A stretch of 64,000 nucleotides of DNA from positions 1 to 64,000 of the forward strand of contig JAIPDI010000022.1 in assembly GCA_021737785.1 (NCBI GenBank), in the 5' to 3' direction. The notes under the pieces are model-generated. The model was not told the DNA's origin, did no database searches, and saw nothing but the letters and a program-made list of their open reading frames with translations. This DNA is from Deltaproteobacteria bacterium. Its GTDB lineage: Bacteria; Desulfobacterota; DSM-4660; Desulfatiglandales; Desulfatiglandaceae. The number at the start of each line of letters is the position of its first letter. Position 1 is the first letter of the stretch. Shown here in pieces: positions 30,099-57,758 of the stretch. A program made the translations under genes and the position numbers.

Positions 30099-30701
30099 TC
30101 ATGGTTCAAGGGTCCGGCCGATGGCCTCTCGCAGTTCTTCAAAGCCGTAGGGTTTGCCCAGAAAGACCTGAGGCCGTTCAACCTGGTTGCCTGCCATGAC
30201 GCTGGCCTCGTCGCACCCGCTGGCCAGGATCACGGGGATGTCCGGCCTTATCCCCCTCATGGCTGCCAAGGTTTGCCAGCCGTCCAGGCGGGGCATGCTC
30301 AGGTCGCAAAGAACAAATCGGATGTCCTTCGAGTGCTCCCGGAATATCTCGATGCCTTCCACGCCATCATTTGCCTCAAGCACTTTCCACCCCAGATGTT
30401 CGAGCATCTGCACCTCCAGTCGCCGCACCTGATTTGCGTCTTCCACCAGGAGGACGGTTCCGCTCCGCTTCGGTCCAGAGACCTGAACCGCCTTTTCCGC
30501 TGGTCTTACGACCGTTTCCTCAGACAGCGGCAGAAACACCCGAAATACACTGCCCACGGAGTCTTGGCGCAAAGCGCATGGAGCAGAGCGCATAGCGATG
30601 ATCTTCTTTTTTTCTTCCGCGCCCCCCGCTCCGCGTTCAAAACGCTCCCCGCTCCCTGCTCCCTGCTCCCCGCTCGACAACTGCTTTCGACCGTGATGCA
30701 C
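30099..30701 (-). CDS. Detached receiver half of a split hybrid kinase
   Basis: A frame of up to 200 residues. The first 50 or so are repeat-derived, then VGSVFRVFLPLSEE is the last strand of a histidine-kinase ATPase domain. It is followed by a complete receiver (VLLVEDANQVRR; FVLCDLSMPRLDG; FLGKPYGFEEL). Upstream, the same ATPase strand is expected in the gene at 30506-32341, but an insertion has shifted the frame. Whether this part is translated alone is doubtful; the starts in frame lie in repeat sequence. Confidence 0.6.
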   Translation of the reverse strand: MHHGRKQLSSGEQGAGSGERFERGAGGAEEKKKIIAMRSAPCALRQDSVGSVFRVFLPLSEETVVRPAEKAVQVSGPKRSGTVLLVEDANQVRRLEVQMLEHLGWKVLEANDGVEGIEIFREHSKDIRFVLCDLSMPRLDGWQTLAAMRGIRPDIPVILASGCDEASVMAGNQVERPQVFLGKPYGFEELREAIGRTLEP

Positions 30702-32341
30702 CCCCCGTGGGCCCGCACGATCCCCAGGGCTATGGAAAGACCCAGCCCCCGGCCAGCCAATTTGGTGGAGAAAAAGGGGTCGAAGAGATTTTCCATCTCC
30801 TGGTCAATTATTCCGGGACCATCGTCTCTCACTTCCATGCAGGCATAGGCCTCGCATTCAGGGCGCCAATCAACAGGGAAGCGGTGTCTTAAGGGAATAT
30901 CTCCCTGGAGAACTGTCTTGGCATTCAGATAAATCGTTCCCCCCTCCTCGGACATGGCCTCCCAGGCGTTCGTAATGAGATTGGCCAGAATCTGTTGCAG
31001 CTGGTTCGCGTTCGCATGAACGACGGGGCCCAAGGGCGGCAGATCAGTCTTCAGGAGCATGTTTGGGGGCATGCCGGCGCGAAGCATGGGGAGGGCCAGA
31101 CGGCAGGTCTCGGAGAGATCCATGGTCCTTTGTTTGCCAGGCGTCTGTCCCAGGTAGGTCAGCATCTGGCGGCTTACCGTTGCGGCCCGGTTGGCGGCCT
31201 TAATCGCCTCTTCCATAGACCCGGCTGGACCGGCGCCTTTGGGCAGATCGCCCATGGCCAGCTCCAGATATCCGATGACCCCTTGGAGCTGATTGTTGAA
31301 ATGGTGGGCGATGGCCCCGGCCATGCGGCCCAGGCTTTCGGCCTTTTGAAGCTGCAAGGTCCTGGCCTCCAGCACATCCCTTTCGGCCTCGGCCCGCTTG
31401 CGGTCGGTGATATCCCGGCTCACCCCCAAGATCCCGACCGCATTGTTGTGCTCGTCCCGGAGAAAGGACATGCTGGATTCCACCCAAATGGTGGAACCGT
31501 CTGATTTGTACTCTTCCAGTTCAAGGATCCGGGTCCTGCCGGGGTCTGCTTTTCCCTGGGCCTCCAGCAACATCTCTTCACTAAAAACCTTTACGGCTGT
31601 CTCGAGCGACTCAGGGACCAGAGACAGGGCAATGGGCTGGTTCATGACCTCTTCCACCGTGGTGCCGTACATGCGTGTCACTGACGGGCTGACATAGGTA
31701 AACCGCATGTTCATGTCCATAACCCAAACCGTATCCGCCATGTTGTCTGCGATCAACCGATACTTTTCTTCGCTCTCCCGCAAGGCCATTTCCATCCGTT
31801 TGCGCGCACTGATGTCGATGATGCTCACCAGGACCCGGCCATAGGTGTGTTCGTAACCCGGGGGCACAATCCAGTGAAGTTGAATGTAAATGATTTCCCC
31901 GTCCAGCGCCATATGGGTCTTTTCCGCAAACAGCCGCGTCTCCCCCTTACCAACAGTCATAAGTACAGGGATAAACGTCTCATAGGATTCCGTTGAAAAA
32001 ACCCTGGTAATCCCGGACACAAAATCTTCCCTGGTCTTTGCCTTGTACAGGCGCAGGGTCGCCTCATTGACATCCACTACCCTGACGAGACCGGCCAGTT
32101 CCCGGACCAGGTCGGGATGGGCATGGAAATAGGCCTCGAGGTCCCCCGCATACCGACGCTTGATGTCATCAATTCGCAGCTTGACTTCAGAAAAGTCTTC
32201 CTCCCAAAGCGAAATAGGGGCGTCCTGAAACCATTGCCGATACTTCCCCTCGCTCTCCTGGAGCGCAGCCATCTGCCTTTTGAGATCCTCTATGTCCAAA
32301 ATCAATGTCTCCCTGGATGGTTCGTTGCCGTTCATGTTCAT
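30506..32341 (-). CDS. PAS-PAS histidine kinase, C-terminus broken by repeat insertion
   Basis: 611 residues as read. Tandem PAS domains (the last with YVSPSVTRMYGTTVEE) precede a HisKA-like helix with phospho-His in AGAIAHHFNNQLQG near 345 and an ATPase domain through GRGLGLSIALGIV. After GGCITVESS the frame runs into GSREQGAGSVLNAERGARK, encoded by GGGAGCA and GAACGCG repeats, and ends out of frame. The missing last strand and receiver lie in another frame at 30099-30620. The protein may be inactive or retain partial kinase function. No TM helix is seen. Confidence 0.8.
   Translation of the reverse strand: MNMNGNEPSRETLILDIEDLKRQMAALQESEGKYRQWFQDAPISLWEEDFSEVKLRIDDIKRRYAGDLEAYFHAHPDLVRELAGLVRVVDVNEATLRLYKAKTREDFVSGITRVFSTESYETFIPVLMTVGKGETRLFAEKTHMALDGEIIYIQLHWIVPPGYEHTYGRVLVSIIDISARKRMEMALRESEEKYRLIADNMADTVWVMDMNMRFTYVSPSVTRMYGTTVEEVMNQPIALSLVPESLETAVKVFSEEMLLEAQGKADPGRTRILELEEYKSDGSTIWVESSMSFLRDEHNNAVGILGVSRDITDRKRAEAERDVLEARTLQLQKAESLGRMAGAIAHHFNNQLQGVIGYLELAMGDLPKGAGPAGSMEEAIKAANRAATVSRQMLTYLGQTPGKQRTMDLSETCRLALPMLRAGMPPNMLLKTDLPPLGPVVHANANQLQQILANLITNAWEAMSEEGGTIYLNAKTVLQGDIPLRHRFPVDWRPECEAYACMEVRDDGPGIIDQEMENLFDPFFSTKLAGRGLGLSIALGIVRAHGGCITVESSCRAGSREQGAGSVLNAERGARKKKRRSSLCALLHALCAKTPWAVYFGCFCRCLRKRS
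30559..30685 (-). repeat. Repeat insertion inside the hybrid kinase gene
   Basis: On the minus strand: GGGAGCA GGGAGCA GGGAGCG GGGAGCG, then GAACGCG GAGCGGG GGGCGCG GAAG, then an A-rich run and a further GCGCTCTGCTCCATGCGC segment. Good kinase homology stops before it and resumes after it in another frame. The length is about 125 bases, so it is not a multiple of three. Confidence 0.7.
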
Positions 32342-51034: not shown

Positions 51035-51080
51035 CGGTTCCCGGCTTCCGCGCTCCGCGCTCCGCGTTCCGATCTCCGCC
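51035..51080 (-). repeat. GAACGCG/GAGCGCG 7-bp repeat array
   Basis: On the minus strand: GAGATCG GAACGCG GAGCGCG GAGCGCG GAAGCCG. It lies between the receiver gene and the chemoreceptor. Confidence 0.75.
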
Positions 51081-57023: not shown

Positions 57024-57758
57024 ATGGGAAGGCATATTCAAGATCCAAAAACCATATTTTCGGAGGTGACGGCTGACTACAAGGGCCTTTTCGGGGAGGA
57101 TCTTGTCAGCATTATTCTCTACGGGAGTGCAGCGGGTCAGGATTTTCAGCCCGGATCATCGGATATCAATTTCATGGTGACGCTGACGGAAAATGGCATC
57201 GAGCACATTGACCGTTCATTCGGGGTGGTGGACAAATGGCGCAAACGGGGCGTGGCCCTTCCTCTCTTTTTGACAGAAGCGTATGTAAGAAGCTCTCTGG
57301 ATGTATTCCCCATGGAATATCTCGGTTTCCAGCGCAATCATGTACAGGTTTTTGGTAAGGAGATCCTCAACACCCTTGAATTCAAACCGGAATTCCTCCG
57401 GCTCCAGTGTGAGCGGGAGATCAAGGGGAAGCTCCTCCTCCTGCGGGAGGCCTTCATGGAAAGCGGCGGAAAGGCAAAGGCCTTGAAATCCGTGATCAGG
57501 GAGGCCCTCCCGGCCCTGGTCGCCATCTTTGAAGCCCTGCTTCACCTCAGGGGAATTGCCCTCCCCGCTACCAAGCGGGAGATTATCCGGGCCGCAGCAG
57601 CGACGTTTGCGATGGAGGGGAGCGTGTTTGAAGGGATCCTCGATATTCGGGAAGGTCGATCCGGGCTTCGGGATGATGAGATGGTTGTGCTGTTTAAAGG
57701 CTGTCTCAGGGAAATGCAGAGGCTTTCCAATATCATAGATTCCTTTAATCAGGAATAG
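57024..57758 (+). CDS. Nucleotidyltransferase-fold protein with altered active site
   Basis: 244 residues. The N-terminus has the nucleotidyltransferase pattern LYGSAAGQDFQPGSSDINF: G34-S35, then D47-x-N49. The second carboxylate of the usual DxD is Asn, so catalysis may be weakened or lost. The C-terminal half is helical, like the HEPN-like or substrate-binding partner domains of such proteins. GGAGGAGCAGAC precedes the ATG. It sits between the TPM and LemA genes, an unusual arrangement. Confidence 0.75.
   Translation: MGRHIQDPKTIFSEVTADYKGLFGEDLVSIILYGSAAGQDFQPGSSDINFMVTLTENGIEHIDRSFGVVDKWRKRGVALPLFLTEAYVRSSLDVFPMEYLGFQRNHVQVFGKEILNTLEFKPEFLRLQCEREIKGKLLLLREAFMESGGKAKALKSVIREALPALVAIFEALLHLRGIALPATKREIIRAAAATFAMEGSVFEGILDIREGRSGLRDDEMVVLFKGCLREMQRLSNIIDSFNQE

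Follow-up and report, generated by a model that had tools for sequence, protein, structure and literature searches.

A heptamer-repeat array lies inside a hybrid histidine kinase gene and leaves its two halves in different reading frames. We consider it likely that the array is ancestral, was accommodated in a hairpin turn of the ATPase domain, turned over in place and later lost its frame, thereby splitting the gene. Bacterial heptamer repeats are usually described as intergenic decoration or as regulators. Here the arrays occupy loops of conserved proteins, persist with changing repeat units across species (and, in a glycosyltransferase, across genera), recur at one codon in a paralogue, and break the frame of signalling genes in some copies. 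They offer a concrete case in which to study the origin of such arrays and their contribution to protein evolution. The window, that is, the whole stretch of 64,000 nucleotides that was analysed, belongs to contig C22 of a 96-contig, 5.33 Mb assembly.

Both domains of a hybrid histidine kinase, HATPase_c and receiver, are recognisable at the locus (Table 1). The initial annotation, made from the letters of the sequence, described a kinase that runs normally to GGCITVESS and then enters GGGAGCA and GAACGCG repeats, with the expected next strand (DSVGSVFRVFLPL) and the receiver resuming in another frame; open reading frames and translations confirm this description. The kinase half matches the Pfam families PAS_9, PAS_4 and HATPase_c (PF02518, E 2.5e-17), the last of these over profile positions 2-100 of 111, whereas an intact homologue reaches position 109. 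The receiver half matches Response_reg (PF00072, E 1.1e-16), keeps the Asp and Lys positions and contains no stops. In the kinase frame, ...HGGCITVESS is followed by GGGAGCR heptamers, GAACGCG-like heptamers, an A-rich stretch and a C-rich heptamer stretch; the frame reads through all of these repeats and stops about 19 codons past the insert. Kinase core and receiver are therefore not joined on a single polypeptide in this genome, being in different frames, while they are joined in the sister-species homologue C171. A kinase half without the last ATPase strand would be expected to suffer in its activity.

Table 1. Features of the split kinase gene and of receiver-loop arrays; positions are those of the window unless a contig is named.
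Feature	Coordinates	Strand	Remarks
Kinase half	30506..32341	-	ORF of 611 aa; PAS domains, probable phosphoacceptor motif AHHFNN, HATPase_c to the penultimate strand (GGCITVESS)
Receiver half	30099..30701	-	ORF in the other frame; last HATPase strand (DSVGSVFRVFLPL from 30563), then receiver domain
Inserted segment	30564..30679	-	116 bp, 2 mod 3; bounded by best fit to homologues
GGGAGCR heptamer array	30643..30675	-	About 4.7 units; TRF score 52
Degenerate heptamers, GAACGCG/GAGCGGG-type	30614..30642	-	From the sequence; resemble the AACGCGG family elsewhere
A-rich stretch AAAAAAAGAAGATCATCG	30596..30613	-	From the sequence; between the G-rich and C-rich parts
C-rich heptamers of opposite polarity (TGCGCTCTGCTCCATGCGCTTTGCGCC)	30565..30593	-	TRF period 14; closes a G-rich-then-C-rich pair
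Receiver-loop arrays	L153 (contig C43) 17105-17204; L156 (contig C78) near 14034

An insert at 30559-30685 with a length that is not a multiple of three had been proposed at the outset. Its presence and its length class stand, and its bounds are replaced by those of the best fit to homologues. Its ends are fixed only to within a few bases, and no target-site duplication was seen by eye at 30564 and 30679. The insert occupies the hairpin that links the two final strands of the HATPase domain. In a model of an intact homologue (mean pLDDT 81) the insertion point falls in the turn between strands 245-251 and 255-264, which on this model is a plausible place for a tolerated linker. A DNA search of the genome against itself matched about 31 bp of the GGGAGCR array to some 35 dispersed places and part of the degenerate heptamer stretch to 51045-51069; the whole 116 bp unit has no second copy in this genome, and only the heptamer part and short pieces recur. 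This pattern makes a fixed mobile unit unlikely, and an element of the MITE, REPIN or RPE type was rejected for want of multiple whole-unit copies. Array expansion or local turnover fits the insert better than movement of a fixed unit.

Extra DNA at the insertion codon was measured between ..ES and GS.. in homologues from relatives and from public genomes of several phyla. It is present in four genes: the window gene C22 (116 bp), C171 (132 bp) and C214 (130 bp) of G001, a sister species in the same genus, and the paralogue C43 within this genome (96 bp). All other homologues have exactly 0 bp, and the site is free of inserts in the further kinases examined in this genome. Of the proposed gene splitting, this much is borne out: the gene contains extra DNA, and its relatives are continuous. 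The insert is in frame in C171 and C43 and out of frame in C22 and C214. C171, the closest sister-species homologue, has one open frame through the insert (ESRYRAGSREQGAGEGEDGGQGSEDGRRKTDDGVGGRATAEPGTGNAEPLGSVFRVFLP); its contig was joined to contig C365 through a terminal overlap of 121 bp, which does not touch the insert. The initial annotation had counted orthologues with the same segment in the same frame as evidence against an insertion; the segment is indeed at the same place, but the frame is different. With this in-frame insert of 132 bp at the same codon, a recent, private insertion as the sole cause of the split is not supported and was rejected. Separately, in a further receiver copy (L175, contig C18, 93520-93975) homology begins at that Gly-Ser codon and the DNA upstream is unrelated, as though there were a breakpoint at this place.

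In a tree of 77 proteins, computed with the insert excluded, C22 and the sister-species genes C171 and C214 form one clade (SH-aLRT 99), in which the branch of C22 is somewhat longer, and C43 groups with the intact G011 and G067 proteins (support 100). A single clade for all four insert carriers, a group that was named after the tree was seen, is rejected (AU p 0.0008), and with it one origin for all four inserts. The placement of C43 with intact proteins implies that this codon has gained an insert at least twice, once early enough for the insert to be common to species of the genus. Since the closest sister-species homologue carries an in-frame insert, the insertion predates the split within the clade, and the frame loss is a separate and probably later event. 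The orthology of C22 and C171 is that given by the tree, with support of 85 by a quick method; no neighbour genes shared with the sister species were found in the short contigs compared. The patch is old and recurrent at one codon, and the broken frame probably reflects later drift.

The inserts themselves carry part of this history. Those of C22, C171 and C214 can be aligned in their first parts, and between C22 and C171 this alignment (CGAGCGGGGAGCAGGGAGCARGGAGCGGGG) proceeds unit by unit and includes CGAGCGGGGAGCAGGGAGC. The right-hand parts are not convincingly alignable, so that shared origin rests on position and on the left part. Such differing right-hand parts would also be expected if each gene had received its own recent insertion at a hot codon, for example by microhomology repair or by ectopic gene conversion with other arrays as donors; C43 did gain its insert separately at this codon, and another loop, in the receiver, holds arrays in two genes. 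We regard independent insertions as unlikely in view of the left parts that align unit by unit, of the single clade formed by C22, C171 and C214, and of a negative test for special period-7 self-similarity or a seed in the native codons, in which the site was not unusual and after which the idea was dropped.

In the history that we favour, an ancestor of the kinase subfamily of this genus would have gained an array of heptamer repeats in the exposed hairpin turn that precedes the last ATPase strand. The array may have been tolerated as a flexible linker for as long as its length was a multiple of three, because its G-rich units are free of stops in all three frames of the coding strand. Its content and length would afterwards have turned over in place, leaving one sister-species copy (132 bp) still in frame and giving C22 (116 bp) and C214 (130 bp) lengths that are not multiples of three, with a kinase lacking its last strand and a separate receiver as the presumed products. 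The position, lengths and frames of the inserts, their partial homology and the intact motifs to either side are observed; from these we go on to infer an in-frame common ancestor, a later loss of frame and an impaired phosphorelay.

In the out-of-frame copies C22 and C214 both halves are without stops and the motifs on either side of the insert are intact, and over all pairs compared the receiver has a dN/dS of about 0.19-0.33 and the kinase one of 0.22-0.27. Intact halves and these ratios fit a loss of frame that happened recently, can be reversed or stems from wrong assembly; they do not fit an old pseudogene. Were it reversible, gain or loss of heptamers would shift the frame by one, and the cells of a population would alternate between a single fused hybrid kinase and a kinase separate from its receiver. 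Such phase variation would draw on a unit length of 7, which is not a multiple of 3, on insert lengths (116, 132, 130 and 96) that span all three frames, and on halves that are both intact in two out-of-frame copies. Heptanucleotide tracts in Haemophilus influenzae, one of them inside an ORF with a frame shift, are described as putatively phase-variable, and there too the number of 7-bp units can alter frame or promoter (PMC2651432). However, those tracts are longer, perfect and variable between strains (PMC2651432), whereas the array described here is short and imperfect. About 4.7 imperfect units are short for a fast switch, and the homologous inserts (116, 130 and 132) do not differ by multiples of 7 except for 116 against 130, which makes phase variation doubtful.

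The assemblies are fragmented drafts, and the frame of C22 and C214 could reflect a miscount of repeats, the array being real but one repeat unit or one base off in length, and the gene in truth in frame. In favour of such an error, short-read assembly is prone to mistakes in short tandem arrays, an in-frame homologue exists in the sister species and the receiver shows no decay. We nevertheless give it a low probability, as two separate copies in two assemblies are both out of frame and so is the hybrid kinase gene on contig C78 of this genome, which has an array in a receiver loop. Far less probable again is programmed frameshifting at the A7 run of the insert, by which both halves would be joined into one protein. 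The run (AAAAAAAG) does lie within the overlap of the two frames, where a -1 shift would enter the receiver frame, but its phase is not the classic one for tandem slippage, RNA structure in the insert is no better than in shuffles (z -0.4 and -0.8), and the other out-of-frame copy has no A run and needs a different shift. A conserved programmed frameshift was rejected, there being no slippery site shared between the out-of-frame copies. An ancestral array that turned over in place and later fell out of frame stays our preferred account.

The array in the kinase belongs to a genome-wide population of repeats. In a survey of 2.32 Mb of the 5.33 Mb genome, with gene calls from a home-made ORF scorer, we found 177 arrays of period 7, compared to 2 and 4 in first-order Markov simulations, and at most 4 arrays at each of the periods 5, 10, 13 and 17; the period-7 arrays are therefore not due to chance. 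Many unit families are present and the arrays are mostly intergenic. Dispersed tandem 7-bp units far above chance, of the kind found in Xanthomonas, Nostoc and Geobacter, are thus a feature of this genome, as are the convergent G-rich-then-C-rich pairs reported for Xanthomonas: neighbouring arrays within 300 bp are ordered G-rich then C-rich in 43 cases and the reverse in 2, a ratio that is stable over thresholds. Across the phylum the GGGAGCA pattern has a patchy distribution (15 of 198 genomes), with 72 hits in this genome and a reversed control near zero. Arrays of period 8 (94 in the 2.32 Mb; families TGGAATAA, GGATTGAG and CTCACCTT), seen in the window at 2820-2897 and across the 2.3 Mb, parallel the heptamers in placement and in G-then-C pairing.

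One idea prompted by the strict G-then-C order is that G-rich units are added at either end of a break. On this proposal, which we consider a long shot, the arrays with G-rich units of 7 and 8 bp might be made by extending both 3' ends of a broken chromosome with short tandem units before joining. If true, it would explain the 43 to 2 order, the single architecture of many unit families, the re-arising of arrays at the same codons in paralogues and their persistence in coding loops as the units change. Two Ku genes are present in the genome, and a single PF00078 reverse transcriptase was detected, which is broken.

Dispersed heptamers are known from Xanthomonas and Nostoc (PMC4692102) and from Beggiatoaceae (PMC4679880). 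The units of Xanthomonas and Nostoc (GGGAATC/GGGGA(C/T)T) are likewise G-rich heptamers placed mostly between codirectional genes, with convergent inverted pairs in Xanthomonas and positions conserved between species; each of those genomes has one dominant unit, and the repeats are under-represented in coding regions (PMC4692102), whereas here several conserved genes hold arrays. The heptanucleotide elements of Geobacter metallireducens, with consensus GGACCGG, also occur inside genes; they form one family of 49 copies with a different unit, unlike the many 7- and 8-bp families found here, and no mention was found there of frame consequences or of persistence across species (PMC2700814). Rickettsia palindromic elements resemble the kinase insert as repeats of about 150 bp inserted in protein-coding genes and translated as an extra peptide, but they are palindromic with a conserved peptide, in contrast to a variable heptamer array without a second full-length copy (PMC10969869). 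Our literature search returned no precedent for heptamer arrays in hybrid kinases. As far as searched, three features are new: intragenic arrays stay at a single codon while their units change, they arise again at this codon in a paralogue, and copies in frame exist alongside copies out of frame.

The initial annotation had also concluded that the repeats move or expand into genes; that repeats enter genes is well supported, as the same families are found well within other conserved genes. One such gene encodes a glycosyltransferase (C3:80700-81872), in which 24, 34, 52 and 56 residues separate ETV from CGVL in four genomes of three genera, compared to 5 in two genomes without the insert; all of these inserts are in frame, and the repeat unit changes from GGGAGCA to GGAAGTC. 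Two hybrid kinases have arrays at the same place in a receiver loop (ATRRIR, array, IPI[IV]AMTAHAM), in frame on C43 and out of frame on C78. An ArsA-type ATPase (L160, contig C79, 9289-9413) contains in-frame inserts of GGAAGTC and AATTCAA arrays. On contig C13, heptamer arrays at 57399-57450, 93390-93531 and 96478-96518 are read through in ORFs, one of them as an apparent linker between two enzyme halves.
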